NCBI RefSeq assembly: GCF_035582795.1
Contig: NC_134365.1
Location: 76,737,635-76,801,634 of the forward strand
Source of the DNA: Mycteria americana
Lineage: Eukaryota > Chordata > Aves > Ciconiiformes > Ciconiidae
Length of the DNA stretch: 64,000 bases
Direction of reading: 5' to 3'
The notes beneath the pieces are model-generated. The model searched no databases. It saw only the letters and a list, made by a program, of their open reading frames with translations, and had not been told where the DNA came from. This document shows, one piece after another, positions 18,092-64,000 of this stretch. The first letter of the stretch is position 1; the number at the start of each line of letters is the position of its first letter. Position numbers and translations under genes: made by a program.

Positions 18092-18288
18092 GTAAGTACG
18101 CCAAGGCTTTTTAAAAGCCTAGAACCCTCCCCGGACGTCACTGTGGCCCAAGCAGATCAGCAGGGCTGTAACGAATGCAACGTGAAGCCTCGCCACGTTT
18201 GACAGCTTTCTGCTTCCCCGCAAGATGAAGTTGACTGATCCAAAGTGCATGTGCATATGGGTTTGGTTTTTTTGTCTTTCCCCTACAG

Positions 18289-18638
18289 CTCCAAAGCGCA
18301 ATGAAGTAGCAGCACCCGGCTGCCAGCGGCACGCAGAGCCGTATGCCCGCTGGGTGAGGATGGATGCCTGCAGGGACCCAGCGGGCACCCGCAACAGGTT
18401 TCCTGTCCCGGGGTCCTCTTTGCTCCCGGGGACGCGAGTCTTACCCACGCTCCCTCTTCTCTTTGCGCTGGCATCTGTCTGTGTAAACACGCCTGCTGTG
18501 GTTGCCAAGGGATCAAATAACAGACATGAAGAAACAAAGAGCCTGCAAGGAATCCCAGGCACAACCGTCCTTATGGGAAAAATATTCTATTATCCAGTGC
18601 CAGTATTTGCCTTTCAGGGAATGAAAACTCAGTACAAG
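18289..18638 (+). CDS. Dystroglycan-like exon A: signal peptide and start of Ig-like domain 1
   Basis: The exon follows a strong acceptor at 18287-18288 and ends AAG|GTAATG. I place the start at ATG 18360 because it has A at -3 and G at +4 and precedes a hydrophobic signal segment (PTLPLLFALASVCV, residues 29-42). Two tiny upstream frames, 18301-18309 and 18343-18357, end just before it and may restrain translation. The end of the exon encodes GIPGTTVLMGKIF, which parallels GIPDGTAVVGRSF of dystroglycan. The n-region before the hydrophobic core is long (about 26 residues), so the start is less certain than the exon. Confidence 0.75.
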
Positions 18639-21600
18639 GTAATGCTACTAAAGACGCTTCTTGGTACAATCCTGCAGCAAATGGGCATTCACTTTATGTT
18701 TAAAATGAACTCGTTAAAAAACTCCTTCTAGAAAAGTGACTCAGATGTATCAGAAATAAGTAAAACTGATGGCAAAAATCTCACCATCGTTCACTGCCAA
18801 CATAGCAGTTATGTGCTACGCAAATAAACAAAACCCCCACACAACATTTATTTTATCTACCTGCAGTCTGAAGAATGCAGGGTCTTAAAAATGGACAGTA
18901 AGTGTTGCCACTACATTAAAAAGCACGCAAAACAAGCAGTACACAAAAATCAAGGCACTGTGGTTTCTAGATTTTTAAATGGATCATTGGTGGCTGTTCC
19001 TGGACCTATGTCGAGTTAGAACTTGCAATATGTAAAACTAGGTAGTAACACCATTTCCTATCTCTAATTCTGCTTATCTGCCGTCCTCTTACGGAGCAGG
19101 TCACTTTAGCCAGTGGTGCAGATTTGCCAAAATGGTTGGACTTCAACCCCAATACAAACACACTGCAAGGACTGCCGATGGCAGGGGAGAGTGGAGTATA
19201 TCTGCTGAACGTAGCTGCCTCTGGAAGGACGCATGCCCAGAAAACACCGAGAACTGCTGGAAATTTCACCATCCATGTTCAGGATGGCATCTTATTCCTG
19301 GACACAGAGGGGAGCTTGAACCACATGCCAAAGAGCTACCAGTGAGTACTGCTAGCTTCCAATGGCTTTTGCCCTAATCGGGGGGTGGGGGGTTTAAAAA
19401 CAAACAAACAAACAAACAAACAAACAAACGAGATGGGTGCTCCCTAACTGACACAGGGTGGTTTTTTCCTACCATGGAAATATGACATTGGGGAAAAAAC
19501 AACAACAAACAAAAAACACCCCACCCCACCCCCAAAATACTGAATGAGCACATGTTGAACCTAAAAGCAGGAGGCTTTGTTGCCCCAGAGCAGTAGGGCA
19601 CAGCAAGCATGGGCATGAAGACGGCAAGCCCAGTGGCATTGGGGCACTGATTCTCCAGGTGGCCACTGTACGGGTGGCATCCAGCCTCCCTGCCCCAGTT
19701 AGGAACTGGAGCTCTTCTGTCAGCCAGGAGAGAGGCAGGCTCCCAGTGGGGCTCTGAATTGCCTCCACAAGACACTGTCTGTTTCCACTGATGGTACTTT
19801 CTTAGTGTAAGTACCTACATTTGATGTCTAATGGACTGGGAATCTCTCTTAGGTGAATTACTTCCAAGTCCACATAATGAGGATACTGTTTGGTAAATTC
19901 AGACCATGCTGCTGTGTTCTGCACAAGCAATGGGATCAAACTTAGTGCTCACTGAAGTTAATGGAATGGGAAACATTAATATATCCCGTAGGAGGAAGTT
20001 TTGGACTAAGAGGTAAAATTTCGAGTGATGCATGTGCGTAAGATGATAGACTAAATCCAAACAGGTATCTTCACAAAAACAGAGGGGCAGACAAAGGACT
20101 CTTAACCAATGCAATTTTGGACTTTCAATATCAGGTGTGGGAAGGATGTTCCCATCACTTCTGCTGAAATCATTATCTCTACTGGAGCAGAAACCCTGAA
20201 AGTACAGGAACGCCTCTACATCGTGTGCACGATGGCCGAATATCTCCACCTGGATTCCTCCCTACTAACCCTGTTGCAACACACAGATTCGGCACAGAGA
20301 GGCTCGCAGAGCCTGACCGTACTGGCTGAAGACACTGGGCACATCGACTTTATGGTGAACCATTACGTAGGACTCTTCTGGCCTGTGAAGTGTGGAGGGT
20401 TTGCCATGCTCCACGAATTCATCCAAGTCCTGCAACACAATGTTGACTCACGTCACCTCTCACAGCTGCTAGGGTATGAAATTGCAGGCTGGAGAATACT
20501 TAGAGGTGGTTATGAAAGAAAGTCTCCAAGACGACAACGTAGGCGATTAATGATCACGCCAACACCTACATTAAAACCAATTAGAATTACCCAGAGACCA
20601 GCTGCAGGAGTTGCTTCCAGGCCTTTGTCCTCTACTGTGCCAAGCCGCTTAGTCACACAACTTGTGGTATCACCTACTCAGAGTTTATCATCTTTCTGTG
20701 AAGAAAGTATAATGATGGCAAGTTACAAGATGCAGAATAACATCCATCTTATAACTCAAGAAAGTTTGGTCACCTTGGAAATGGACTCAGTGTGGGACAT
20801 GCCAACTAAGCCACCAGTATCTATTATGTTTGCAGACTCTAGTTTTCCAGATCTTTCGCCTTCACTGATTACTAAAACAGTGCTTCTGGAAGTGCTGCCT
20901 ACTACAACTTCTGGCACATCCTTGCTGTTAGAGCAGCTGGAGCCTCACATGCCTGAGACAGACTCATATTTCCTTTCTACTAAATCAGAAGTATCGACAT
21001 ACCATTTCCTACAGGACATCACTTCAGACACAGACCAGCTTTCCAGGCCCACATACACTTGGGTGATAAACACTCTTCATGAATGGCCTCTCACCTCAGC
21101 AGAGGCATTTCCTTCTAAGACAGAATTTCATGTCTTTTTGCCAGAAGCAATGTCAGTATCAGAAGCGCCAGATTACAGCGACAAGGCAAAAAGCCACTTT
21201 CCAGACCTTGAAATGCTTCCTAGTGCATCCCTCTCTCCAGAAACACACTCTTCACTATTCCCAAAAGCTTCAGCAAGAGCCACAACTTTGTCTGACTTCA
21301 CATTTCCCATTGATGACACGCTTCCACCTGTGCTAGCAAGTAGCAGTCTGAGCCAAGTGTTCGCTAACGACTATGAACAGTTATCTAAACCTTTTATGAC
21401 TATCCCACAGCCCAATGGGTTTCCATTAGCTGGAGGGAAAAGCACAGTTTCTTCTGTAACCCAGAGAGACGCACAGACCCTCTATCCCAAATTGCATTTC
21501 AGTCCTGAAGCCTCAGCCTGCTTTTCTGGCATGTTATACAGCACTTTCCCTAGCAAAGCTGAAGCACCTTATGAACCAAGTCTGATCATTCTGTCCCATC

Positions 21601-24600
21601 CTGATACCGCTTCAGTTCTTACTCTGCCAGTAGACTTTTCTAGCTTTGACATGTCTGAGCTATCCAGACCAACAAATATACTTTGTTCTTCTTACGGCGG
21701 CAGCATGCTCAGAACAGAGATGCAGTCTGCAAGTATTTTGTCCAGCGGCACAAAGGAATTGCATTCGGACAGAGATCTGGGAACAAGAAGGATTTTGCCA
21801 AATGTCACCGAGCCTACCCTGGAGTCACACAAAATCTCAAACATCAAGTCGGATGCCGTAGAAGTACCTCTGGTAACTTTATTTAAAGCCACTTCTCATC
21901 TGTCCAGCAGCATACTGGGTATGTTTAAGATTTGACTTTACATTCATCTTCTTTCCTGCCCTGAGAGTCCTGACAGAATAGGTCGATACAGTTTCTTCTG
22001 CAAAAGCACAACTTCACTGCACTAGGGATGTGTCAGCAGCAGTGTTCCTCGTGCGGGAAAGTAACTTTTTCACTCAACATGGTACAGATAACAGCTCAGT
22101 TGAACAATCAGACCCAGCTTTGGCCATCCTATCTAAAGAAAGATATGGACCCATTGAAAGAGCTCCGAAGGAACGCAAGGATGGTCAGAGGTCTAGAAAA
22201 CATGACAAACTGAAATAATTAGTCTAGAAGACTGAGGAAAGATGCAGGTTTATGTAACAGTTTGCTGAAAAGATGAAAGAAGTGTTCTCAGTATCCCCTG
22301 GGAACTGAAGTGGTACTAATGACCCTCAATTGCAGTTAAGATGATTTAAGTTAGACATTAGATAAACTTTCTCACAGTAAGGAAAATAAAACATTAGAAG
22401 AGATGCTTGGGGAACATTGTGGAGGGTTTTTAAGAACCGAACAATAAATATTTATCAGAAATGACACAGAAGTAGTTCAGTATCCTACAGAGGAAAGAAT
22501 TAGACCAGACACCCTTTATAGTCCGCCTTCTCCTCCAACTGCATGAATCTGTGACACAGGCTTAAGTATATACTAGATTACAGAGATGGTACGTTTGTAG
22601 GAACAGCTGGGTAAATTTGCAGGATTATGTCTGAATCAGCTTATATTACATGTGTAAAAAGGTACACATGGTAGATCTTAAACACGAAGTGCAGCATTCA
22701 GAGCCAAACTATTCCTCCATTCTAGAGTGACCTGACTGCCCTTATTTTTAATGCATTGGCCTTGTTAATGCTCCTCAGAACCATCTTCTTTCTAAAACTT
22801 TACTAGACCTACATTAAGTCTACACCCATAGCGCAAGACTGTAGTCCGAAATATTTAGGTTTGCAATCAGGTGTCCAAGCAAGCATCTGTCAAAGCCCAC
22901 AGATGGACAACACAGCCCTAACACGATACTGTTATTAACACTCTTGCAAACACAGGCCATCTAGAGATGTTAAAAAGTATCTTTCCACTCCAGTGAGAGA
23001 AGCCACTTGGGTGAAGAGTTCCCCCATTTTCTAAAGGGGAGGCTGAACTCTAGCTTCCTTCCCATGGTCCTTCCCATGCTGGCAGATGCTGGCAAAGAGT
23101 TTTCAATCACATGCCATAAAAGCTTTTAAACTACATTCCCAACCCTATAGCAAATTATTAACGTAAGATCCCATTTACGTAAACCTAAACGATCTTTCCC
23201 CATAAACTGTAATGATCTTCTCATTTTCACAGAGGTGGTTCAGACACTACTGCCATCACACCAGGATCCAAGCACCTTGCTGTTTCCCACATCTGAAAGA
23301 CTACGGTCCATGGAAAGCGCATGGATTCTTCCTCCATTTTCTGTTTCACAAGAGCTTCAGAGTATAACCCCAGGTAAAAAGAAGTTTACTTCTATGTTCT
23401 TACTTCTGAACATAGCCGTCATCAACCTTTTCATCCATCTTGCAAGGTATCTCTGGTTTCCTACACGAGAACTCATGCAGTCCTCAAACTACTATGACTT
23501 AAAGATTTGTGTCCTTCTGAATTAATCCCTCCCTATTATTTACATTTATTTAATATATAAGGAGAGGATAAGATTAGGGCATGATTTTACTTAATCTTGC
23601 AAATTGGTCCCTATCCTAAAGTGTAGAAAACACAAGTGAGATCCAGAAATGGCAGGAAGAAAGGAACACTTTTGTCACAGGTTGCAGGAACTCCCTGCAT
23701 CCTGATCTTCTCCCTTACTCCTTGAGCCTGCCAGCAAACTTCACCTAACAGTCACAGAGAGATTTCCTTTCAAATTTGTCACCACATTTTATCATCCTAC
23801 AGCTTACTTGGTGTCCACTCACATATTCATAGGAGCTCTTCAAATTGGGCAGATGTGCAGCACTCAAAGTAATCCTGTCCCAGGCAGGGTGTCTGCCACC
23901 TCCAGAAGTGGGGTGATGCTGAGACACCCAGTGCTTGCCTGATTAATCTGAAATTATTCTTGATGCTAAACACAGCTCAATGGAATAAAGAAAAAACAAA
24001 TATATTCTCATAAAATCCCCAAACAAAAAAATCCATGATTACTGTTGGAAATAGAAGATGAAACAATAACATGTTTTAATAATTACCCTGTACATGAGCT
24101 CCATTTCAGAATCTGATGACGGAGCACTCAGACATCAGGGCTGGGACCGATTCTTTACAGAGTTAAGACTTGTTTCTTCAGGAATTGTGTCTGTTTCCCA
24201 AGAGGACACTTCATGTGGAAACATAATCATGAGCTTCTGCACTTTCTGAGGATCTCAGCTTGTGCAAGCACACTCCCAGGGGTTCCTGCAAACTTAATGC
24301 TGGGAATGAGGGCAAGTCAAGGTAACACCCCATGACAGCCCTGCTAATGAGATATCTGTGCTAGAGTCTTTGATAGGTAAAGTATCACAGTACCGGGCAG
24401 TCTCCTGCTGGGCAGCTTTGAACTGTAATCCAAACTCAGATTTTAGTAGACCATCCAATCACACAAGGAAAGGTCTTGAAGTTTACATAAGCTTTCCATA
24501 ACACAAAATGCAAAAAAAAAAAAATTCAAGCCAGAACTTTGCAATAACAGGAAGAAACACTGCCCTTATTCTTCGAAATTAATGCATTAGAAATGAGACA

Positions 24601-27135
24601 TACTTAACTGCCACCATGAAGTAAATGCATCACCTGAGAGGCATATTGTGATATTTCTGTGTAAAAATTACAAGAATAAGATATTCTTGTTTGGGAAGGC
24701 ACTATACAAGACCTGACTAATATGTTAGACTAGAAAGAACAGTGTTGTGCCTATTTACAACTCCTTAAATAAACATATATCTAAATATGCTTAAGCAAAT
24801 GAAGTGGTTGTTAAGATGTGATCAAGGACAACACTTTACAGTACTGATATAACCTTAAGTTTCAGTAGAAGGGAGGCAAGTACAGAATTTCCCTTACCAG
24901 TCCTCAGCATCTGCCATTGTCATTCGCAGGTCAGAGGCTGCGTGAGGTGATGGGCACACTGTCCATCGAAAAAACAAATGTCATCCACCCCAGCTGAATG
25001 CAGGCTAAGCAAGGACAACAGCTGAAGTGGCTTGCTTCTGATTTACAAGATATTAGCAATTAGTTATCATAGAATGTAAAGCAGATTTTTCTAAGATAAT
25101 CTATCTTCTAATTTGTTTTCTATATTTTAGCTTTGAATTAATCTGTTTAAGACTAACATCTAAACGTGAACCTTTTTAATTGCTTTTGAGATTATCCTCC
25201 GATTATATGATGAATTGGTCTTGTTAGTGCTGGGTTTGGAAAAAACAGATTAAACAAAACAGAGTGCTTTATTGGATTTTAGATAGTTATTACCCATGTA
25301 TTTTCAGTCTAAGTCTCCCAAGGACTAATATGTGATCCCTATTTAAGGATGCTACAGAAGCTCCAGATTACCAACACATTTCCATCTTCATGCAGTCAGA
25401 GGAAGTATTTTAAAAAAATCTTCAAATCATCTTCCAAAATGATGCTGTAGCTAAGTGGTTGTGCTCAGTTACTCACTTCATAGGAAAGAATGATTTGCAA
25501 TGTCTATCACAAAGGGAAATAATGTAAGAAAAGCAGTGGGGAGTTCTGTTGACCCTAAATAAAATCAGTAAGAAGTACTGCTTCTCAAAAAGGAGCCTAG
25601 AGGGCAATGTAACACGTCTCTTCTGAAAAGTGGTAGATGATATAACAAGGGGCAATAGCCACAAAACTGCATTTCAGGAGGTTCAGACATCAGGAAAACT
25701 TTCACTTTCTCACCCAGAGAAACCTGGGAGCCTTCATCCTCAGAAGTTTTTAAGACTCAGCTAAGCAAAGCCATGCTTGATCTCATTTTGTCTTGGCTAC
25801 AGCTCTGAGCAGGAGGGTGGCTAGATGACCTCCAGAGGTCCCTTCTAACCAACATGCTCCATAATCCTATGAGGCTGACAATATTTCTTTGCTATCATTC
25901 AGTATCAGATAACTATTTTTTCCTCATAATTCTTTCCTTTCCTTTTCTCCCTCTCTAAAGGGCAAACAAACACTTCCCCAAAGGTTGTTCATTCCATTAA
26001 ATTCCTAACAGCAACCATTGGATGCCTCTTCTTTTTTCCAATACCTGCCAATACATTTTACGATGAGGAAGATGGCAACTCAACTCGGTTATCTCTACAA
26101 ATCGTTCCAGCTGATGGCTCTCCATTGGGATCAGAAAGCTGGCTGCAATTTAACACCTCTCAGCAAGCAATGCATGGCTATCCTTTTGATATTGATTTCC
26201 AGTATTCGCCTCAGGAGTTTGTGCTGTCTGCCACAGATTCAGGAGGACTGACTGCCTGGGAATCCTTCACCATTGAGCTTCTGAAGCCCACCAATGTACC
26301 ATGCCACCTTTACACCATCAGAACAAAAACCAGCTACTACTCCTTCCTGAGAGAGAGGAAAAAGGTTAGTTTGTTTCTAGAGAAGCTCTCCCTCTATTTG
26401 AACTCCAGCAGTCCCAAAGACATCATGGTGACCGCTCTCAAGCCTGGGTCCACAGTAATCTCATGGTATAACAGTTCGCTGTGTACAAGTGCCAACAGAT
26501 CTTCCAGCTGGTGTGCAAAAGATGAAATCCAGGAAGCACTAGAGAAATTAAGAATGCCGGATGGGTATGTTAGCCCACACTTTGTCCAAGCAATGTTGCC
26601 AGAATACAAAATTGATGTCATTTTCAACATTTCATATAGCGAAGTCTGCTTTCCCACTACAAAGCCATTCGATGGGTCTTTCAACACTACTGTGCCTATA
26701 CTTCAAGACAAGAATGACTCCACGATTAGGAAGACCCCATCCGCCTTACTAAGCAGTCTCTGTGTCACTGTTGGGGTGGTTCTGATAATATTGGTCTACT
26801 GGTTTTGCAGGTATCGCAGGAAGATTCCTGGATCACAGTCTGTGACATTTCAGAGAAACTCTCAGTTAAGCCATGCTGATGTGGAACTGGATGGCCTGAA
26901 ACCTCGCAAAGCACCTGTACATGAGTGCAGGGCTTCGCCTTCACCTCAGTTATGGATACCACCTTCGGTGTCACTTACCTCCCAAGAGCAGTATTCTAGG
27001 TCAATAAGACTGCCTCACATGACACCATCTTTCCGGCCGCCAAAATACCAACTCCCTCCCCATTATCAAGAAGGTATGACTACCCAGAATGACCAGGGCA
27101 ATATCCACAGACTTAAGTTAAGATCTCTTAAATGA
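18360..27135 (+). CDS. Dystroglycan-like membrane receptor (DAG1 paralogue), 5 coding exons
   Basis: Coding exons are 18360-18638, 19100-19341, 20135-21918, 23233-23373 and 25961-27135. All junctions are GT/AG, phases agree, and they sum to 1,206 codons plus TGA. Domain order follows dystroglycan: signal segment (about 27-49), Ig-like domain (64-170), second N-terminal domain (175-300), basic furin site (306-311), Ser/Thr-rich mucin region (312-815), cadherin/Ig-like domain (about 816-930), SEA-like region with Gly978-Ser979 and cysteines 990, 1000 and 1045, membrane helix (1077-1097), basic RYRRK stop-transfer and a cytoplasmic tail with PPKY and PPHY. DAG1 is about 895 residues, so this is longer, mainly in the mucin region. 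By homology it is a plasma-membrane adhesion receptor cut into alpha and beta chains. Identity is too low for DAG1 itself, and I see no damage. It runs tail to tail with INTS13. Confidence 0.9.
19100..19341 (+). CDS. Dystroglycan-like exon B: rest of Ig-like domain 1
   Basis: The exon opens after GGAGCAG and closes TACCA|GTGAGT, giving 80 codons plus two bases. It encodes LPKWLDFNPNTNTLQGLP, which lines up with LPSWLHWDSQSHTLEGLP of dystroglycan, and then GVYLLNVAASG for GVHYISVSATR. These Trp, Leu and Gly-Leu-Pro positions are the core of the N-terminal Ig-like fold, which in dystroglycan takes part in recognition by LARGE. The family match is clearest here and in the last exon. Confidence 0.9.
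19398..19429. repeat. (AAAC)n microsatellite
   Basis: About eight perfect CAAA units lie in the intron after exon B of the dystroglycan-like gene, followed downstream by further A/C-rich sequence (about 19495-19535). A low-complexity tract with no sign of function. Confidence 0.9.
20135..21918 (+). CDS. Dystroglycan-like exon C: second N-terminal domain, furin site, mucin region
   Basis: The first base completes a CAG codon, giving YQCGKDVPIT, and the exon ends ACTG|GGTATG or, by phase with the next exon, ACTGG|GTATG. Residues 175-300 match the second N-terminal domain of alpha-dystroglycan, ending with LLGYEIAGWRI against LGYPVVGWHI. A basic cluster PRRQRRRL (305-312) sits where dystroglycan has its furin site, followed at once by TPTPT (315-319). 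The rest is rich in Ser, Thr and Pro, with scattered acidic and Phe residues, and is not an obvious tandem repeat. It would be a heavily O-glycosylated stalk. Confidence 0.88.
23233..23373 (+). CDS. Dystroglycan-like exon D: distal mucin segment
   Basis: A 141-base exon between TTTTCACAG and CCAG|GTAAAA, with phase 1 on both sides so it can be skipped without shifting the frame. It encodes 47 residues rich in Ser, Pro, Thr and Leu that carry the stalk toward the membrane-proximal domain. I recognise no motif in it; support comes from phase, splice signals and an open frame. Confidence 0.7.
25590..25870 (+). mobile_element. CR1-type LINE 3' fragment
   Basis: The block carries diagnostic CR1 3'-end phrases: ACAAGGGGCAATAGCCACAA (25643), a TTCAGACATCAGGAAAACTTT segment shared in part, and TAGATGACCTCCAGAGGTCC (25824) followed by CTTCTAACC and a degraded ATAATCCTATGA end. 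It is a 5'-truncated, diverged copy with no reverse transcriptase frame, in sense orientation in the last intron of the dystroglycan-like gene, ending about 90 bases before exon E. CR1 is the dominant LINE of birds and other sauropsids, which supports the taxonomic guess. Confidence 0.8.
25961..27135 (+). CDS. Dystroglycan-like exon E: cadherin-like and SEA-like domains, membrane helix, tail
   Basis: The exon starts after CTCTCTAAAG and runs to TGA at 27133-27135. It encodes IPANTFYDEEDGNSTRLSL and SWLQFNTSQQAMHGYP, matching the IPSDTFYDHED and SWVQFNSNSQLMYGLP blocks of dystroglycan. ATDSGGLTAWESFTIEL follows for ATDKGGLSAVDAFEIHV. LKPGSTVISW matches the TRGSIVVEW cleavage site. A 21-residue membrane helix leads to a tail with FADELDD-like HADVELDG, MTPSFRPPKY for MTPYRSPPPY, a second PPHY and a 22-residue extension beyond it. 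DAG1 ends shortly after its PPPY. Confidence 0.93.
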
Positions 27136-50674: not shown

Positions 50675-51971
50675 CTAAAAGAAACAGATATTAAAATCAG
50701 AAAGAAATTGTACAAGGCAAAAAAATCACATCACAAGATTATTATGCAATTTATATAGTATAAAACTATCTTACTAGAATACCCAAGTTTTAAAGGTTAC
50801 CTCTTACAGTATTTAGATTACATGTTGCATACATTAGCTCCTACGAAACTGTTAAGCTTTTAAAAAAACTGCAAAAATTCCCATTTTAAGAATCTGTTTA
50901 CACGGAGACAAATATCCGCTAGAACTCTTACTAGTCCATATAGAAAATGCAATACTTACTTTGCACTCATCTATACAGAAACTGCTTCCTATTTAAAGCT
51001 TATTTCCTAAAATAAGCAACATGGAAAAAAATAATTTATGATTAGGCTATACAGACCTCAAAGCAGCATAAACATCAGACTTTTAAGTAGATTTTCAGCC
51101 TTCACTTTGCTATGTACATCCTTCTATTTTTAAATGAATATTTGCATCTGTACTTTGATCTCTCACTGACAGACATACCATTTATATTGAAATTATAACC
51201 TAAATGTTTCTTATCCAGCAAGACTCACAGGAGCACCCCTTGTATTCTTCCCAACTGTGAAGCCCGAGAACTCCGCAGTGAAGTGTGGTGCATTTTCCTG
51301 TTTCACATGGATAGACTGGGTTTCCCTCTCCTATAGCATCACGGAAAGGAATACTTTTGAAGCAACTATAACACCAGATCCTTGTGTTAAGGGTGGGCAT
51401 CGTAACTTGGAGACCCAAACTACATATGAAAATTAATCTTAGACCAGTGCTACTTAGACCACTGATCTCAGACCGAACACTCCTCATCAAACTTACTCAA
51501 CTTCTAGATGTTTCCATAGTGTTTCTAGTACAAAAATCTATTTCGTCCACGCAAATGCTGCTGAATTACAGAATAGACAAAACCAGAAGTTATATACGGG
51601 CTCATTTAAAAAACTAAAACATTAAAACAGTAAGGACTCACACAAGTCCGGCTGCGGGCAACATCTGGCTCTCGGGGACAGGTTTCGCACCCGTCCTCGG
51701 CAGCAGCTCCAGCTGCCGGGGCACACTACACCCCTTTCGGCAGAGGCCAAGGCCGGCCGCAGCCCGGGCCGGCCCAGCGCCGGGGGCCCGGCCCAAGAAC
51801 CTGCATCCTATCTTTAGCCTGGCAGAGAGCCCGAGGGCCCAGGAAGCCGCGCCGGTTCCTCGAGGGCAGGCAGGGCGGCAGGCAGGAGGGCCGCAGGCGA
51901 CCGGCGGGGTCCGGAGGAGGCGAGGTCGGTCCCCGCCCGCCCGCCCGCAGGCCGGGGGCAGTGTTTCTCAC

Positions 51972-52530
51972 CTGGGCCGGCTCCTCCGCTGATGCAGAAG
52001 TCCCGGTCCTGCTCCGCGCCGCGCCCGGGCCCGGCCGCGGGCTCGCTCCGAGGAGGAGGGATGAGGCCCCCGGGGCGCCCTAGACGGGGTCGGGCGCGGG
52101 CGCCTCCGGCCGGGCGACCTCCATGCCCCTCCGCCCGCTTCCTCCGCCGCCGGCTCCGCGGCGAGCGCGGGGCCCAGCTCCTGCCTCCGCGCCCGGCGCC
52201 CGCGGGGGTGGGAGAAGCGGCCGAAGCCCCCCCCGCTCCGCCCACCCCTGAGGCCGCGAGACCCCCGCGCGGCCACTTACGCCGCTGGCACAACGGCTCC
52301 CCCAGCGCTGGCGGGGGGAGCGCCTCTCCCCTCCCCTCCTCCCCTCGCCTCCCCGGCCGCGGCGGCGCCAGCCACCCGCGCCCCGGCGGCTGCCCGGGCT
52401 CACTCCCCCCCCATGCCCGCACCGGCCCCACCGCTCGGCCCTCCGCCTGGGCGCGGGCCGCCCCGCCCTGCCGCGAGCCGCCGCACGGCGCGGAGGAGGA
52501 GGCGGAGCCCGAGGCCGACGATCTCGCGAG
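51972..52530 (-). other. INTS13: Noncoding first exon of INTS13 (5' limit estimated)
   Basis: On the minus strand GGCCCAG|GTGAGAAAC is a consensus donor ending an exon at 51972. It would be followed by an intron of about 1.3 kb to the first coding exon. The start of the exon is unknown; I set it at the nearest TCTCGCGAGA palindrome. The many long open frames here are a by-product of GC richness. Confidence 0.5.
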
Positions 52531-52531
52531 A
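52522..52531. promoter_or_regulatory. TCTCGCGAGA palindrome, copy 1
   Basis: Perfect 10-base palindrome known from CpG-island, often bidirectional, promoters; binding has been ascribed to Kaiso (ZBTB33) and related factors. This copy is nearest INTS13. Confidence 0.8.
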
Positions 52532-52544
52532 CGCCAGAGACCGA

Positions 52545-52561
52545 CCCCCCCCCCCCCCCCC
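52545..52561. repeat. Poly(C) run of 17
   Basis: An unbroken C tract in the core promoter, followed by AAGGGGGCGGGC, which contains an Sp1-type GC box. Its length is prone to sequencing error and to real length variation. Confidence 0.9.
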
Positions 52562-52606
52562 AAGGGGGCGGGCGGCGGAGGGGTCGCCCTTCCATACGGG
52601 CGCTGG

Positions 52607-52611
52607 CCAAT
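52607..52611 (+). promoter_or_regulatory. CCAAT box
   Basis: GGCCAATAGG fits the NF-Y core with good flanks and sits between the first and second TCTCGCGAGA palindromes, a usual place for a proximal element serving FGFR1OP2 or both genes. Confidence 0.6.
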
Positions 52612-52650
52612 AGGGAGGCGAGGAGAAGCGGCGGGAGCCGGGGAGGCGTC

Positions 52651-52660
52651 TCTCGCGAGA
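52651..52660. promoter_or_regulatory. TCTCGCGAGA palindrome, copy 2
   Basis: Second perfect copy, 129 bases from the first and 51 bases from the third, start to start. Confidence 0.8.
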
Positions 52661-52701
52661 GCGGGGAGCGGCGGCGGGGCGGGAGCGGCCGCAAGGTGTC
52701 G

Positions 52702-52711
52702 TCTCGCGAGA
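52702..52711. promoter_or_regulatory. TCTCGCGAGA palindrome, copy 3
   Basis: Third perfect copy, nearest to FGFR1OP2, about 190 bases upstream of its predicted first donor site. Confidence 0.8.
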
Positions 52712-52826
52712 GCGGCGGTCGCTGGCTCGCTCGCCCGGTGCCGCTGGCAGGTAGCGCGGCCACCCTCGCCTCACACCGCCCCGCCCACTGGCGGGGACGC
52801 GCCTCCTCCGCTTCCCCCTGCGGCCT

Positions 52827-52838
52827 GCCGCCATTTGA
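52827..52838 (-). promoter_or_regulatory. YY1-like site
   Basis: GCCGCCATTTGA on the plus strand is the complement of the YY1 core ATGGCGGC. In CpG-island promoters such a site often lies just downstream of the transcription start, so FGFR1OP2 transcription may begin shortly before it. Confidence 0.5.
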
Positions 52839-52903
52839 CAGCGGGGCGGGCCGGTCGGGGCTTCACCCCCGGCGCCGGGCGCTGCCGGAGCCGCCGGTCA
52901 TGA
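52830..52903 (+). other. FGFR1OP2: FGFR1OP2 first exon (5' limit estimated)
   Basis: The sequence CCGGTCATGA|GTGAGTGG gives a consensus donor at 52904. The exon start is a guess from the YY1-like site. Joining to the next exon (AAATGAGTTGC) makes the ATG at 52900 read ATG AAA ATG AGT, in frame with the usual start, so translation might begin two codons earlier (MK-MSCTIEK). Confidence 0.5.
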
Positions 52904-52965
52904 GTGAGTGGCGTGAGGCGGGGAAGGGGCGTTTGGGGGCAGCCCGGCCGGCTGGGCGGTGGGGG

Positions 52966-53020
52966 AGAGGAGAGGAGAGGAGAGGAGAGGAGAGGAGAGG
53001 AGAGGAGAGGAGAGGAGAGG
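52966..53020 (+). repeat. (AGAGG)11 pentanucleotide repeat
   Basis: Eleven perfect AGAGG units lie about 60 bases inside the first intron of FGFR1OP2. The G-rich strand is the transcribed sense strand, so the RNA and displaced DNA strand may form G-rich structures. Length variation is likely. Confidence 0.9.
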
Positions 53021-53108
53021 GGAGGAGTTGGGGAGGTTAGGGTGCCGTTGCCGGGCGCTTGGGAGCCCGACGGACTCGCATTGGGGCGCACGGGGAGCCC
53101 CTCGGCCG

Positions 53109-53116
53109 TGACGTCA
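53109..53116. promoter_or_regulatory. Consensus CRE (TGACGTCA)
   Basis: Perfect palindromic CREB/ATF site in the CpG island, about 200 bases downstream of the predicted FGFR1OP2 first exon. It contains a CpG, so binding would be methylation-sensitive. Confidence 0.6.
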
Positions 53117-53129
53117 CGAGAGGTGCGAG

Positions 53130-53157
53130 GGAGGAGGAGGAGGAGGAGGAGGAGGAG
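53130..53157 (+). repeat. (GGA)n triplet repeat
   Basis: About nine GGA/GAG units in the first intron of FGFR1OP2, 110 bases beyond the pentanucleotide repeat. Purine-only on the sense strand. Confidence 0.85.
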
Positions 53158-56100
53158 CCCCCCAGTACTCTGGCTGGGGTGGGCCGGGGCGAGTCCTGCC
53201 GCTCGGCTTTGGCGAGGGAGCCTTCATCGGCCCTCCCGTGCCCGCCGTGTCACGGCAGGTGACGGTGTCGCGACAGTCCTGACTGGCGCGCCTCAGCATC
53301 CGTTCTCGCGGCGGCGGGGAGAGGGGGGAGGAGGCGGCGCTCCCTGAGAGCCAGCTGCCGCCCCGCCGCCCGCTCCCCTCCCTCGGCCGGCGAGCGGCGG
53401 GGAAACCGCAGGTCTGCTGAGCGTGTAACTGGGCTGCGGCGGTGGCACCGCGTACGGGCCGGGCCTGTGCGCTGCGGGAGGCTCATTGTCTGTTTCGTGC
53501 TGCTGGAAGCGGTGGTGGCGCCGGCTGAGCCTGTGGCACTCTCTTTTTACGCGGAGAGGGCCAGTGGGCGTTTGCACCCAGCCTAAAACTCTTGGGAACT
53601 GCAGCGTGGTTCAGCGTTGCAAAACCGGAGCGTGAAGCTATGGGAAAAGGTAGTTTTCAGTAAGGATATAAGAAAGAAGAGGCAGAAGACTAGAGGAAGG
53701 CTATAGTTGCACAACAGTCTTTATTCTTTGGTGGTTTTGTTTTTTTTTTAAGGGCAGCCAAATTTGATAATGAAGGCAATTAGTAAATAGCAGGAAGTGA
53801 CAGGAAATTAATACGTAGTAGCAGTATTGGTATGTCGTTTGAGGTGTTGCTCTTGCTACCTGTTGACCCTGTTGGTAAGATTGCAGGCTGACAAATGTAT
53901 TTGCAGCTGGGCATCTCTTGTAGGGTAGAATTCAGGAATCATTAAGTTTAGCTACTATAGTCCTCATGCTTGGAAAAAAAATCAGTATACAATAAGAATT
54001 GGTTTGAATCAAATATATTTGATTAATTGGTTGGGGTTTTTTTTCCCTAAACGTCCAGGCTAACTCACAGATTGAGATCTATTGTAGGATAAGACAAAAG
54101 TTTTGTTTTTTGTAGGCAGCCAGATGACCAACTAGAGAGAATTTTAACTTCCAAGGATCAGGGCCAGCATCTTGCCCAAAGGAATCCTAGTCAAGGCTTG
54201 GAGCCACTATGAATTACCATGATACAAATAATGATTCTCCTTTTCGAGGTACAAATCCTGCCTGAAAACAGGAGGTGGCCTCTGGCCTGCTGAAGCTGCT
54301 GTGCTGTGGGGGTGGACAGTCACTGCTGAATTTGCGTGGCTGCATTCCCCACAAGGCACACACCTGTCTTCCCCAACTCATTCGCTGTGAAAAAGAGCGC
54401 CGGTGGCTTTGCTACAAACGAATTTCTTTTTATCTTGTGTAGTTGGGTTGGGTCAAAATGAGAAAGTGCATGGGCGGATAAATACGTGCTGTGTTTAAAA
54501 ATTTATTTTGATGCATACAAATTATCAGAGGTGTTAACTGCATTGTAGTCTGAATGCCAGATGTATTCCAAGCTCATGGAGAGGCCTGAGAGGCGTTGTT
54601 TATACTGGCTAATTCATGACCCATGAATTGAGTTAAAGACTGCTCTTCAAACTCTCCTTAAATATGGATCTGATTAAATCAATTTCTGTAACAGTTTAGC
54701 CAGCTAGTGTGGAAGGTCATCTTTTGTCTGTGATATTTTTGTAGTCCAGTAAGAACATGAGACCAGAATTGGAAGGAGAAATGAGCAGCGAGAAAAGCAG
54801 ATGCTTAAAAACAATGCAGTGCGATCCCTATCTACATAATATTAAAAAGAGCTCAAACTGCTAAACCAGAGTGAATAAATTAACTACCCGTGACAACACA
54901 CCACCCTGCTGAAGAACTTGACTTGATACCTCAAATACCTGTATACATCATATGGAAGTTAAAATGAAAAATCTAGTTGATAAACAGGAAGGAATTAACA
55001 TTACGAATGTGTATAGGAAACTTGTACATGTCAAAATGCTGATGCTTTTGATAACACATGAATCACAGAAAACACAGGTTAAAACAGTGGTGCTCTGTGC
55101 ATACACGAAGCTCACTTACGGAAGCTCCTTTGTCAGTAAGCAAGTATCAACCATTCTGTGATGGTAGGGTCCCTTGTAAGAAAAAGTAAGCTAAATGCTT
55201 TTAGCAGAGGGAGCAGCTAATGAAATCACCAAATTAAAATGCTTTTGAGAGGTTAGGCCTTGCAGGACGTTCTGGGTGCACAGAGAGAACATTCCAAACT
55301 CTCCTGCAGTCTTGCTTAGCTTTCCCCCACCTTCATGCATGAGGGAAGGATATTCCGCTATGTTTGTAAATCTTTTGAGGGGAATGGTGGAACTTCTGGT
55401 GTTTGAAATATCCTTACTTCTGCTACTTACCTGGGACAGTGAGAAAAGGTCAGTTGGGGAAAGCATGAGGATTTCTTTAAGTTTGGCTTAAATATCCTAG
55501 GCTATGATTTGTTAAGGTGCCTAAGAAAGTCAGAAAATCAACTTGGAGCAATTTTTTTTCCCTGTAGCTCAGGAAAGGCTCACTGACCTTTTATGCTTCC
55601 AAAAATTTCTCCTTTAGCAAATGGCCTGCCTAAGAAATGGATTTAGTTGATCTTTCAGTACTTTGGAAAGTTTTCTGAAACAAATATCAAGCCTTATATT
55701 AATAAGGCCCATAACTCTAATAAGCCTCCATAGTTGCTGTCTGATTGCTGAAGAACTGTTCAAGGGGTTTAAGTAGGTTTCCTTTTCAGCAGAAAAAGTG
55801 CAAGGTTTCTTAACAGAAAATTAAAAATTAAAATTAATCTCGGTCTTGAAACTTAAATCTATCAAGAATGAGTATGAAAAAATTCAACGTAAAGGCCAGT
55901 GTTTTGGAAATGCTAGTATGTACAAGCATTTTGCAAGTTTAGCAATTCTAGCAATAGGTAATTTCTGCTAACAATGACTGCAATTAGAAGGTTAGTATTT
56001 TAACTACACAGTCAGTTCTTTTTCTTAGCTAAGTTGCTGTCTTTCTCTATTTTCTTGAAAATTTGCAGTTTCCTTCCATGCAGTGATGTTTGTGTTCATT

Positions 56101-56734: not shown

Positions 56735-59700
56735 ATGAGTTGCACAATTGAAAAAGCCTTAGCAGATGCAAAAGCACTGGTGGAACGGCTAAGGGAACAT
56801 GACACCGCAGCAGAAGCTCTTATTGAACAGACTACAGCTCTTAACAAGCGGGTTGAAGCAATGAAACAGGTTTGTTTTTCAACTTTGTTTACTCCAGTAA
56901 AAGAACAACTTGGAAAGACATAATTTAAAATCATTTTTGTGTGCTACTGTACAATGTAGAATCAGTATGTTATTTGGTTAATCCTTTAATACCATACTAA
57001 GTATTTTCATTATAGGTGTGACCATGATCTAAAAATAGGTTGTTTATATATTTAGTTTGATCCCGTGAAGAAGTTTTCTCTGTTACTCTAGCTTAAATAT
57101 TGAAAACCAGCATTTCTTTGAAGAACACTGGTAGAAATGCAGTTGAAAACTAGCATTTCTTTGAACACTGGTAGAAATGGGGTTGGTATCTTACAAACCA
57201 TTGTGTGGTGTCTTGTGTTTTGCTCTTCTGTGAAATACTACTTGTTTTATTAATTTCATCACGCACATTTAATCATATAGCGGCCCTGTCATGCATTCTT
57301 CTGTTCAGAATACTTTATCTTTTCACAGTCTCCTTTTGTTTCAAAGCAGCCTCTTAGGCTTATTTGTGATCATTTCCATTCTGATGTTAGATTGAGCGTG
57401 ACTTTCACTGGAGAACTTCTGGTAAAACATAAAGGTGTCTACTGACTTTCCATATGGGTGTTCATCCTGTCATTTTAATAGAACACAGGACATGTTAATG
57501 GGCCTGTAAAATAATAAAACCCTGCATGTGCTTCATCCCTGTAAAACTGTAAAACTAGTCATGCAGAGGCTTCATAACTTCAGATCAAGAGTACTAAATT
57601 TACCCATTTGTTGAGAGTCAGGATCCATTCATTCAGGTCCATGTGAGTTGTACCCATACAACCTTGTAGTTTAAGGTATTGGGAAGCCATAGTAAATATC
57701 TAGGGGTTAATACCTCATGGTTTTTCTTTACCATATGCATATCAGTTTTCAATTACTTGATGGTGAATTTGACCTGCATTAATTGAAGGTTAAATAATGC
57801 CCACTACACACATCTGAGGTATGAAACTTGTTTAAAAACAAAGGTGATACTTTTGCATCTCTAAAGGGCAGTATGTTAGCAACACCTCCAGAAGTGTTTT
57901 TGTTTTCTGTTTGATATTATTATTTAAAAACAAGCATTATCTTGCTGGTTACAGCCTTTGACTGACATTAGAACTGGTCCTTTGTGACTTGCTGAGTAAT
58001 GCTTGCCTTCAGTTACTTAAATATGTTGTGGTTGTTTTTTGTTTTGTTTTGTTAATAACTAGTACCAAGAAGAAATTCAAGAGCTCAATGAAGTAGCAAG
58101 ACATCGTCCTCGGTCTACGTTAGTGATGGGTATCCAACAAGAAAACAGACAGATTAGGGAATTGCAACAGGAAAATAAAGGTAAAACATGAATATTCTAT
58201 CCTTTAAAAGTCCTGGCCTGCACCACTGGAATTAGTGAGACTTTTACCATTGATCCATTCTCAAAAATTTGTTATAGAAAAAATTTTTTCTTCTAATCTC
58301 AGTTTGTCAGTTTAACTGATCATAATGCAATCTAATAAAGAGTCCTAATGTCCAACCACTGGGACTATGATTAACAAAAAGAGAGACTTGTGGAAAATTA
58401 CTTTTTCAGTCCTTATCTAATGGTCAGCACAAGTGAGGAGATAAATATAACTTACTTCTACAATACAGGTATCTATCTGGAAATGCATTTTCCCACTGCT
58501 AAAAACAACTAATTTAGGAGCAGTCAGGACAAGTTGTAGTATAAGTGCAGGAGTATAATTCCTTCTGAAATTCTGTACACTAGGAATAAATATACTGTTC
58601 TTCCTGGAATACCTTAGGTATTCTAACAGTTATATTCAGCAAAGGAGTCAATGATCTCGGTTTGTATGAATCTTATCTTGTCTCAGGAGTCATTTGTCCT
58701 TTGACTTCATATATTTTGAACACAAGCATTTTTTAACTCTCATTTTACCAAGCTGCAGATTAAAACAGATCTGTAAACTTCTTTCCAGCTTTTGTACAGT
58801 GTTGCTTATAGTGGCTAGAGTAAAGCTCTCCTCAGCTACACTCAGGATGGCTTATATCAGCTAAAGGGGCTGAATAAGAAGTCATATTAACAAAAGACCT
58901 TTTGTTTCTGACTGAACAAGAATTTTCCCAGGGCATTCACCACTAAAGACATTTGCAGAGCATATGTAGATTTTATGGTGCAAGGAGAGGGGACACTCAA
59001 TTAAGGGCTTATTTTGGTTTTCTCAAGCTGAAGTACTTCTGCGTTTTGTTTCAGTTCTTCTCTGTTAAACTTTAACTGAATTTAAAATTATGTTGGTAGA
59101 ACTACGCACATCTCTTGAAGAACATCAGTCTGCTTTGGAACTCATAATGAGCAAGTACAGAGAACAGATGTTTAGGTTGCTTATGGCGAGCAAAAAGGAT
59201 GATCCAAGTATAATAATGAAGTTAAAAGAGCAACATTCCAAGGTAATGACTTCATTTTTTTGGCCTTTGTTTTTTTAGTTAACACTTAAAGTTAGTTTGT
59301 AGTGGATCAATTCAAAGCTTACTTTTTCTCAGTTTTTATATCATTGACTAACAAGTCCTAATTTTTATAATCCAGTCCATGAAATGCAAACAGGAAACTT
59401 GATCAGTCTAGTAAGTCAACCTTACTAGCTTCTGATTTATTTAAGCTTTTATCAGGTAGCATTTCATTACTGTACCTACTCAATTTACTTTTGTTTTGCC
59501 TAGGTCTCTAAGGCAACTGCCCTATTATACTTCCAGATGCCCATAGATCTCGGTAACATTCAAACATTTAGGCTGGTTTTAACTTACGCTTGTGACTCCA
59601 ACAAAGAACTAGTAAACCTGTGCTTACTGGGGAGAGTAGGAGGAGTAAGCTTTTTAAATTCAATATTCAAATATTTTTTCCCCTAAATACTGTAAATTTA

Positions 59701-62700
59701 AAAAAATATATATTTTAAAAGCTCTTTTGAATATTGAATAACTGAGCACATACTTCTCTTCCCTGCTTCAACCCTTGGTTCTTGTTTTGGTACTGATCAG
59801 GATTGCTAAGTAGAATCCAGGGCAGCCTGGAGAAGCTTGAAGGGTGGTGAAAGTTACTGGTATTAGGTGTGCTTCATCTTATGACTTTTGAAAACTAGAA
59901 AAGGAAAGTGACATCAAGCAACATTTTTGTAAACTATCATGAGGGAGGTATATATGAGTATTCAGTAGCTTCATATAAGGTTAATACATGTTTTTATAGC
60001 GTTAATATATAGTTTAGGCTTTTTTATATGTGTTTTCAGGAAAATTCATTATTCTAGGTCACTAACAGATCTCAACAGGAGCTTTCTAACAAAGCATCAT
60101 ATTACATTTTAAATGAAACGTAATCATCTCAGGGCAGCGTAACTGTGTAGACAAACACTAGTTCTAAGTGTTTAATAATCTTTGACCTCAACAAACTAAG
60201 CCTGCAAAGCAGAGTTAGGGTCTGCATACTGGGAAAACAAAGTTTAAGAATTTGATGTCATCTTATCTCCTTGGAAAATCACATGTATGTATTTAGTGCC
60301 ATTGAAACTAATGGGACTACTTAGATTGGTATGAAAGAATTTACTGGATTAGAACTATATCTAACATAACTCCTAAAAAATGATAGCTATATATCCTTTT
60401 CAAAAGAAGTTACCTTAGGAGATCGTATAACATATCTTACAGCCTCAGGAGAGGGTAAATTTATATCCGTTCTGAAATGGACTTTGACATTTCATTTAGG
60501 AATGCTTCTATGGGTTAAAGCTTGAGGTAAAAAAAAAAAAATTGAACAGTATTATTTAAACAGGAGATTTAGGCTTCAACATTTTGGTTAAATCTGATCC
60601 CACAAGAATGCCTGATGAAGAGGATTTATCACCCTTAGCCTGATGCTTAGGATTTCTGGAATTTCATTATTTCTTCTACTGATCGGCCTTCACATTCAGT
60701 AAAATTGAACAAACTTGAAGCAGTCTTTAAATACTTCTCTACTGTTAACTAAGAAATCCATCATACCTAAGGAATTAATCTTGCTGTTACCAGTAATCGC
60801 TGTTCTCTCAAGTGGCAGCTATTAACTTTAGTGCCTGTTTACAAAAGATTCTTAAAAAATCGTTGATTTCTGCAGCTCAACAGGCACCTCCTTTAAACAG
60901 AAAAACAATTTCTTTTAGCAGTGTTGTATGCATGAGAAAAGCGTGTGTTGGTAGTAATGACCTTGATCTAAGCGTGCTGTTTGAATTCACTCAACTGAAA
61001 CAAGGCCTAAAAACGTGGGTGTATGGCAAATAAAAAGGAGAGCAATACAAAAAGCGTTTGTAGATGTTTGAGGCTGTCTTTGTAAAGAAGCACTTTGATT
61101 GCGTTGTTTGATGTTACAGCATCTAAATTTTACACATCTGCCTTCCAGACTAGAACCTTACAGTTTTGTGTTAGCATCTGATCTAACATTAGTGACCTTG
61201 GAACAGGCCCTAAATCATATTGACTGAGATGCCATGTAAGCTGGCAAAATAGGAAGTAGGGAGGACAGCAGCATACCTAAAAACCACTAACTCCTTCCCA
61301 GTCCTTCTCAAGGGTACATCCTTGCCAACTCATTTCTTTACCACTGATCACAACTTCCTTTCAAGCTAAACTTTTCATTGAAAAGTTCATTTTTTCATTG
61401 AAAAAAATGTTTCATGTAATGACCTTCACTGGAAACTGAGAAGAAAATAAAGATTCACAGCAAGTTGTTTTGGTTTTTTTTTTTTCTTTCCTGTTTTTTT
61501 TTTTCCCCTCTATGCTGTGAGTGGGCATTTAATGAGTAAACAGCTAAACCATAGCTTTGGCCATTGCAATGGCAGAGAAGAAAAGACGGAAAGGGCCAAT
61601 GTTCATTTTAGTAGAGTATATTTGTTTTGGTCAGGTAAAGTTCATGATTCCAAGTGAGGCAGTTCTTTATGGTAGTTTAATCATTTCTGGTGGTTTAAAG
61701 GCAAGCTGATCATCTGTTAGATATATGGACCTCCAGTGAAACTCATCATTTAAAGGTGGGATTTAACTTTAGTCCATACTGTTCTTCATTTCAGTCCTAC
61801 TGTTCTGCTTTTCCTGATATTAGTTAGTAAGTAACTATTGTGAATTTTGTCCAAAGGTCAGGTCAGACATGGATAGGCTGGCATGATAGTAGAGTTGGAA
61901 TAAAAGACAAGTTGAGGAAACAACAATGAAAAATAAAAACTTCTGGAAATACCATTAAAATATTTGGCTTAACTGAACAGCAATTAGTGCCAGAGGCACA
62001 GGCTCTTTATCTAGATCTGCAGGGAAAAGAAGTAGTGGCCCTTTAAGCATTTCCTGCTGGTAGGTTGGCCAGAGAGAAAATAAACTGTCACCTGAACCAA
62101 CAAGGTCCAGGTAAGAGATCAATTCTCTGCAAACAGTGAAGATTATCTAAAATCTAGCTTCCTTGTAAAGGCTGTTATGCCTATGTAACTGGCTCCTATC
62201 ATTCCCACTCCTGGCAGTGGAACAGGACAAGAGCAAACTGCTCTTTTCTTCCTTCTTGAATCTTTCAGTGAGATGGGGTAGTTATTTATTTGTAATAGGA
62301 AAGTACCCTGCTGTCATTACTGAATGGACACAAGGAGGTCAGTGAGGACACAAAAGTCTTTCTTACAATTCAGCAAGGACAAGGACAAGGACCTCTGAAG
62401 TCCAGATCCTACATGAGCCAGAACTGGAAGTGGATTCAAGTGGAAGTATCTAAAGAAGAGCTAAGGACAGATCTGAGTTTCCTAATACATGACATAGTAA
62501 GGATGACCACTTCAGCTGATCTTTTTAAGAGATAAATGCCTACCCCTGGGCTGGTACTGGCTGTACCAGACTTGAGATCAGGTTTCAAACAAATGGAAAG
62601 AATGTCACATACCCTGCTGTTCTTAAACGAGTTTCGTCTTTCTGCATATCCAAAATAATATACATAAATTCCTGCAACACAGGAAGGCCTTGTCAGAGCA

Positions 62701-64000
62701 AGCACATGGCTAACTGTAGCTGTTTGGAAGATGTGGAAGCTACAGAATATATAGTCTTTTAAGCTTATGTAAAATTCTGCTAAAAGGGATCACTGTGTGG
62801 CAAACCAGATTTATTTAAACAAACAGGACCATAGTGGCTGCTCATGCTGTAAAGTTATAGAGAACTTGTTTTCTCAAATTTAGACCTGTGTTCACATTTT
62901 TATTAAGTGGCACAGCAGTTAAAATGCACATTTAATGCTTTGCTTATTTTTAATAATGCAGAAAATACATTACTAAAGCTGTCACTATTTTAATTTTATG
63001 TCTTAGGAGCTGCAAGTGCATGTGGACCAAATTACAGAAATGGCAGCAGTAATGAGAAAAGCCATTGAAATTGATGAAAAGCATGGCTGTAAAGAGCAGG
63101 AACGTATCATTCAGCTTGAGGTAAGTATGAAATCAAAACAGCAGTGGCACAAATAGCAAGGGAGTAAATGTTTCCACAGTTATTTATATTGAGTTACTGT
63201 ACCAGTCACTCACTGCTATTTTGTTACGCTTCCCTTGGGAGGACTGTAAGTACTTTTTTCCCCACTATGGTTTACTGTCAAGTCTGGCATAGGTGATACT
63301 TCATCACCAGAAATCAGTGATTTATATTTATATACTAGCTTAAGCTTTCTCTTTTTTTAAGTCTCTGTATAGCAAAAGAGATAGAAAATAATACAAATTC
63401 ATCCTAATGAATAAGGCACTAAGATGCAAATAATAATACCCACACCTTTGGCTTTTAAATATTATTTTTTTTAAATAATGTTGTGCTTGGTGGGGGGGGG
63501 GGGTCTCAGTTGCTTGTCATTGAAGGGTCAACGCTATTGCTCTTTAACTAGTGCTAGCAAAGCTGTTCATTATGGGACAGGCTGTGTGGAAAGAACGGGA
63601 GATTTTTTTGAAATGCAGCATTTGAACTTAATTACCCTCTTCTTACCCATCTCTGTGTTTTGAGCTTTTTTTTTTATGCTTAATGCCCATTCAAGAGAGC
63701 AAGAGGGTCAGAAACCTGATGTTCTTAGTTTTAGAAGATAACATAGCACTACCTGACTGCAAATCAGTATTTTAATCCTTATACATATGTCTGGAGTAGA
63801 GGGGAAGGGAGAGGAGATTATTAAGGTAGTTATCTTAACTTCTTTCTGGAGTTCTATTAAATGCCTTTTCTTTCTCTGGTTATAGCAAGAAAATAAAGGC
63901 TTGAGGGAAATTCTTCAAATAACTAGAGAATCATTCCTGAACCTCAAGAAAGAAGATGCATCAGAGAGCACATCTCTGTCAGGATTAGTAACAAGCAGTG
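56735..64000 (+). CDS. FGFR1OP2: FGFR1 oncogene partner 2, coding exons 1-5 (3' end outside window)
   Basis: Coding exons: 56735-56869, 58063-58180, 59100-59242, 63007-63120 and 63886-64000, the last cut by the window edge. Spliced, they give [20 protein letters not shown] through [18 protein letters not shown], a [18 protein letters not shown] block, [20 protein letters not shown] and [20 protein letters not shown], i.e. 208 residues, near-identical to vertebrate FGFR1OP2. Only a few residues should follow if it ends like the roughly 215-residue human form. The protein is almost all coiled coil, belongs to the SIKE family, is associated with STRIPAK phosphatase-kinase complexes in the cytoplasm, and was named from a fusion with FGFR1 in a myeloproliferative disorder. 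All junctions are GT/AG and phases agree. Expression is probably shared with INTS13 through the common promoter. Confidence 0.97.
57101..57181. repeat. Imperfect tandem duplication, period about 43
   Basis: TGAAAACCAGCATTTCTTTG with the following ACACTGGTAGAAATG is repeated with one substitution and one 3-base gap, in FGFR1OP2 intron 2. No known element is recognised. Confidence 0.8.
59243..63006 (+). other. FGFR1OP2: FGFR1OP2 intron between coding exons 3 and 4
   Basis: About 3.8 kb of AT-rich sequence with T-runs near 61,470-61,505. No exon with family similarity, RNA gene or clear transposon was recognised. Confidence 0.6.

Follow-up and report, generated by a model that had tools for sequence, protein, structure and literature searches.

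The 64,000-nucleotide stretch of Mycteria americana DNA analysed here (the window, part of contig NC_134365.1) carries on its plus strand an apparently intact gene of the dystroglycan type, for which we use the working name 'DAG2'. We consider it probable that this is a protein-coding second dystroglycan gene, now much diverged, which forms with DAG1 a pair most likely derived from the early vertebrate genome duplications. On homology and architecture its predicted product is filed as a dystroglycan, albeit a divergent variant of the family, and the gene is probably a fast-evolving, functional paralogue.

The coding sequence extends from 18360 to 27135 and comprises 1206 codons plus a stop, with no internal stop codon (Table 1). 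A preliminary description of this DNA had announced five exons with consistent phases, and this proved correct: the four introns are all of the GT-AG type and their phases (0/2/1/1) match from one exon to the next. The start that it gave, 18289, corresponds to a putative acceptor at which the ATG-containing exon A may begin, but coding starts only at 18360. We infer that the ATG at 18360 is the start codon; five others lie 5' of it (at 18225, 18249, 18257, 18301 and 18343), the last two being 3' of the 18289 acceptor and out of frame. The proportion of C+T over 18 bases at the acceptors was modest for exons B (61%) and C (67%), and was 78-89% for exons A, D and E. Exon D is the least certain of the five and could be skipped without a shift in frame. 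An open reading frame arising by chance was ruled out by a shuffled-protein control (see below) and by simulation. The window reads on without a stop for up to 609 codons; in 60 simulations under a first-order Markov model the corresponding run averaged 157 codons and never exceeded 240.

Two other segments of the locus deserve a mention. Just 3' of exon C is a 78-codon open frame (21982-22218, plus strand), which has a stop before it and does not share the frame of that exon; it could be a relic, a product of chance or an alternative terminus for the mucin region. As an additional exon it was rejected, the acceptors, judged by eye, giving no stop-free in-frame join to exon C. In the intron before exon E, a stretch at about 25800-25880 bears some resemblance to the end of a CR1 element.

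The similarity to dystroglycan extends to both ends of the protein. The joined N-terminus was colinear with residues 27-292 of alpha-dystroglycan (alpha-DG) 9c3c over 266 residues (phmmer, E = 4.2e-17). Exon A is included in this colinearity and, since the alignment runs across both junctions, it supports the A/B and B/C joins. Taken separately, the open frame 19049-19345 matched alpha-DG 9c3c (E = 1.2e-7), the exon B frame matched Pfam He_PIG (E = 5.5e-7) and the S6 domain with its flank (20106-20700) gave a weak dystroglycan match (E = 0.0074). At the other end, the open frame 25930-27135 matched beta-dystroglycan (beta-DG) 8yt8 (E = 1.9e-19), and Pfam DAG1 (PF05454) scored 29.5 bits on the last exon, for a cut-off of 23.3, over 92 of its 290 profile positions. 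Against the DAG1 of the same genome (its own DAG1, described below) the model protein scored 102 and 62 bits, whereas the best of 100 shuffled copies reached 26. A scan of viral contigs returned no relative.

As the preliminary description had it, the layers of dystroglycan follow one another from an N-terminal Ig-like domain to a PPxY tail. The alignments and motifs, with the motif definitions of section 13 of PMC4582122, give the order: signal-like segment, IG1, S6, furin site, TPTP, Ser/Thr-rich region, IG2, Gly-Ser site, transmembrane helix and two PPxY motifs. The RQRR and TPTP motifs, the latter four residues behind the furin site, fall in the columns of human residues 309-312 and 317-320, respectively; the human furin site is RVRR at 309-312 in the relevant passage of PMC9917425, and Thr317 and Thr319 follow it according to the section of PMC4582122 cited above. 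Both S6 cysteines are in register with those of DAG1, and the other columns kept are IG2 Gly563 and Pro565, Ile593, the Gly-Ser site and Cys669. The transmembrane topology and the presence of PPxY in the cytoplasmic tail (about 110 residues) are also those of DAG1. The protein is however 311 residues longer (1206 versus 895, in line with the excess of about 300 first estimated), with a Ser/Thr-rich stalk of 504 residues containing 26% Ser+Thr, versus 30% over 178 residues in its own DAG1.

The conservation of the processing sites, also claimed initially, holds insofar as the furin site, TPTP, Gly-Ser and PPxY are all present. It does not hold in several particulars, and these weigh against the explanation we prefer. 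The Pfam model of S6, a_DG1_N2, was not reported at E ≤ 1. The maturation site reads LKPGSTVI, where the consensus is Hy-x-R/K-G-S-Hy-Hy-Hy: a proline, not a basic residue, precedes Gly-Ser and a threonine directly follows the serine. The Cys713 column is occupied by a tyrosine, the nearest cysteine being four columns further on. PPKY and PPHY end 28 and 22 residues before the C-terminus and are thus not terminal; in the alignment they are paired with an inner proline motif of DAG1, and nothing is placed against the columns of the terminal PPPY. The stalk has 9.5% Pro and 9.9% Thr, as against 22.5% and 24.2% in its own DAG1. Lastly, in the column of Thr192 (first S6 strand), a position which we take to be equivalent to T190 of the mouse, the second dystroglycan has a glutamate, Glu185. 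The T190M substitution in mouse is described in a passage of PMC9917425 as inhibiting the interaction with LARGE1. Thr192 was nevertheless not taken as defining for a dystroglycan because some other animals have Ala, Val or Asn at this position of theirs (PMC4582122, same section).

These departures could mean that the gene is a functional descendant which has left the laminin-dystrophin axis, i.e. a mucin-like adhesion protein with other ligands or WW partners, in a restricted tissue for example. This explanation overlaps with the one we prefer and is a tenable, if lesser, contender: the Glu in the T192 column, the replacement of a Pro/Thr-rich stalk by a Leu/Ser-rich one, and a PPxY pair with 22 residues behind its second motif are what it would lead one to expect, but TPTP at the furin spacing of DAG1 and the PPxY motifs have survived in a protein that differs from DAG1 at three out of four aligned positions.

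To place the gene relative to DAG1, the whole genome (1.35 Gb in 279 contigs, the window's own contig, C1, being 223 Mb long) was searched. With the last exon as query, there were at least two matches at E ≤ 1 (six candidates scored): the second gene itself and C11:5,886,851-5,887,984, 28% identical to the query (E = 4.6e-21). The C11 locus is an ordinary DAG1, with an 802-codon open exon, which starts behind an AG acceptor at the site of the IG1 intron, the usual C-terminus and a Pfam DAG1 score of 513 bits. That the window holds a separate gene, with an ordinary DAG1 elsewhere, was therefore verified; a misassembled or second copy of DAG1 was ruled out, DAG1 being intact on C11 and only 28% identical in the last exon.

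The window protein, the large exon of its own DAG1 and a human DAG1 sequence were then aligned together. The mucin region, where the alignment consists mostly of gaps on the DAG1 side, was left out of the main count, and 605 columns were filled in all three sequences. The window protein was identical to either DAG1 in 152 of them (about 25% identity), as compared to 484 for the two DAG1 proteins with each other; it is thus far from DAG1, as originally stated, and equally far from both. At the 121 columns where the two DAG1 proteins differ, it agreed with its own DAG1 15 times and with human DAG1 15 times. Because a later duplicate should lean towards its own DAG1, the gene was probably duplicated before birds and mammals separated (about 300 million years ago), with the proviso that this test depends on the accuracy of the human sequence used, on one aligner and on highly divergent proteins. 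To this extent, the proposal of an old vertebrate paralogue was strengthened.

Other counts point the opposite way. Outside the mucin region, BLOSUM sums slightly favour its own DAG1 (632 versus 598) and, in the mucin region, the window protein agrees with its own DAG1 at 11 and with human DAG1 at 2 of 35 differing columns. They would suit a late duplicate, born in the sauropsid or bird lineage and very rapidly diverged, rather than one of an early-vertebrate pair; 152 identities in 605 columns are also to be expected if selection was relaxed or positive once a late duplicate had arisen. When the mucin segment of the window protein was shuffled and realigned 60 times, the means were 7.6 columns for its own DAG1 and 4.4 for human DAG1, and a difference of at least 9 was reached in 9 of the 60 runs. 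The mucin lean is mostly a matter of composition and aligner, but it lends no support to an early origin, and the even score outside the mucin region stands against a late one.

Introns are relevant to the same alternative. The first coding intron, of phase 0 at the K|V junction of exons A and B, is equivalent to human K95|V96 and in register with that of its own DAG1; PMC5216574 reports, in the portion concerned with gene structure, an IG1 intron at this site in every dystroglycan gene surveyed. Its retention rules out a retrocopy. The surveyed land-vertebrate DAG1 genes have one coding intron (PMC5216574, same portion), whereas the second gene has four. The three additional introns fit poorly with a simple ohnologue: either the gene acquired them once it had been duplicated, or the copy has an older or more complicated past than is assumed here. 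In having a second full-length dystroglycan gene, with an additional intron in one of the two, the genome resembles those of teleosts (DAG1a/DAG1b) and lampreys (second DAG1; PMC1885269 and PMC5216574, in part). The teleost type of mini-intron was ruled out by exon length: in DAG1a/DAG1b the extra intron lies inside S6 after 403-480 exon bases, whereas here the next intron comes after 242 (PMC5216574, portion cited). In the lamprey gene the extra intron follows 975 bases and interrupts the mucin region (same source); judged by lengths alone, it may be homologous to an intron of the lengthened mucin region found here.

The map position was examined with protein queries for ITPR2 and BHLHE41 (their N-terminal parts) and for human INTS13 and FGFR1OP2. 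Judged by its N-terminal part, ITPR2 is not inside the window: 12 blocks of it (69-98% identical, minus strand) were found at 76,649,499-76,728,868 of C1, so that its first coding exon is 8.8 kb to the left of the window and the block holding the protein start stops 27 kb short of the second dystroglycan gene's start codon. Related blocks, out of 35 matches in all, are on C11 (12, at 11.86-11.91 Mb) and C20 (11, at 4.45-4.47 Mb); we take them to be ITPR1 and ITPR3, respectively. The start of BHLHE41 similarly matched C1 (3 blocks, 76.38 Mb) and C11 (3 blocks, 11.69 Mb). An origin by genome duplication would fit, since the ITPR and BHLHE families, two families only, both pair C1 with C11, i.e. 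the same two contigs as the dystroglycans. Here too a reservation must be made: on C11, DAG1 is 5.8-6.0 Mb away from these relatives, which is a loose linkage. Among the matches listed in the genome search with the last exon, no dystroglycan match was near ITPR3. All things considered, a late duplicate appears unlikely, and a DAG1/'DAG2' pair dating from the early vertebrate duplications is preferred.

On the other side, the gene is bordered, as the preliminary description had it, by INTS13, located downstream on the minus strand, and beyond it by FGFR1OP2; unlike DAG1, it is set between ITPR2 and INTS13. Between the first coding blocks of INTS13 and FGFR1OP2 lies a G+C-rich island (51600-53350; 69% G+C over 52001-54000). 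Long frames overlap on its two strands, and GGAGA is repeated there in an array of 12.8 copies (52964-53027). The island looks like a shared two-way promoter whose frames are a by-product of composition. Within FGFR1OP2, between coding blocks 1 and 2, a 43-base unit is present as two head-to-tail copies, 90% alike (57100-57179). Chicken ITPR2 is on chromosome 1 according to the part of PMC4521446 that deals with it; a link to eggshell traits through ITPR2 was considered and dropped, the text of the paper making no mention of INTS13, ASUN, FGFR1OP2, SSPN or dystroglycan.

Table 1. Exons of the second dystroglycan gene and neighbouring genes (positions in the window)
Feature	Position	Strand	Content	Basis
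Exon A	18360-18638	+	ATG, hydrophobic signal-peptide-like segment, first part of IG1; 93 codons, phase 0 out	
Exon B	19100-19341	+	Remainder of IG1; phase 0 in, phase 2 out	He_PIG and alpha-DG matches
Exon C	20135-21918	+	S6, RQRR (307-310), TPTP (315-318), most of the Ser/Thr-rich region	
Exon D	23233-23373	+	47-codon cassette in the Ser/Thr-rich region; both ends in phase 1	Splice sites and frame only
Exon E, IG2 to tail	25961-27135	+	IG2, Gly978-Ser979, beta-DG ectodomain	
Exon E, 3' part		+	Transmembrane helix (about 1076-1096), cytoplasmic tail with PPKY (1175) and PPHY (1181), stop	
INTS13	50667 to 32147	-	15 matched blocks	74-100% identical to human protein
FGFR1OP2	56735-63999	+	5 matched blocks	81-100% identical to human protein

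The open frame, the kept processing sites and the probable age of the gene together argue for a working gene. An intact-looking gene that is not transcribed, or is dying, would account for the low sequence conservation and for a stalk poorer in Pro and Thr, but can hardly be reconciled with 1206 open codons, canonical GT-AG sites and an age probably above 300 million years. When neutral substitution of the coding sequence was simulated (300 runs), in-frame stops numbered on the average 6, 10 and 19 at 0.05, 0.1 and 0.2 substitutions per site, with minima of 0, 2 and 9: at 0.1 per site every run gave at least two stops, although at 0.05 a run could be free of them. We consider this explanation very improbable.

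If the gene is transcribed and works in the way of DAG1, the following scheme can be proposed. The precursor would enter the secretory pathway, where its N-terminal IG1-S6 unit would be recognized by the glycosylation machinery and a furin-type protease would cut behind RQRR. TPTP and the stalk of about 500 residues would carry O-glycans, possibly matriglycan; the latter is conceivable because the distance from the furin site to TPTP is the same as in DAG1, while the Glu in the column of Thr192 and the different make-up of the stalk point to altered glycosylation. The SEA-like region would then cut between Gly978 and Ser979 to yield an alpha subunit (about 668 residues) and a beta subunit (228 residues) which stay together, and the beta tail would offer its PPxY motifs to WW-domain partners such as dystrophin, utrophin or others. 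A bolder proposal, which we put forward as speculative, is that land vertebrates began with two dystroglycan receptors, that this lineage uses the second one, bearing matriglycan, as an independent laminin receptor, and that mammals lost it.

Published surveys, as represented by the relevant portions of PMC4582122, PMC5216574 and PMC1885269, list one dystroglycan per bird, reptile or mammal, with duplicates in teleosts and lampreys only. The vertebrate proteins surveyed are described there as very similar to the human one, and PMC1885269 (portion concerned) traces the teleost pair back to the genome duplication of teleosts; the gene described here differs on both counts. Our literature search, over titles and the beginnings of abstracts, with few subscription papers and no bioRxiv, found no second dystroglycan in birds, reptiles or mammals among the matches listed; an automatic annotation of the gene may well exist in gene databases. 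To conclude, it appears that the picture of a single dystroglycan in land vertebrates may be incomplete. A gene older than the bird-mammal split, in which three aligned residues out of four have changed while the furin-TPTP arrangement and the Gly-Ser site were kept, would help in identifying the parts that dystroglycan cannot do without. In chick, dystroglycan experiments may have to reckon with a possible backup or second receptor. And if there were indeed two original receptors, one of which was lost in mammals, then mammalian accounts of dystroglycan function would have been drawn up without one of the two original genes.

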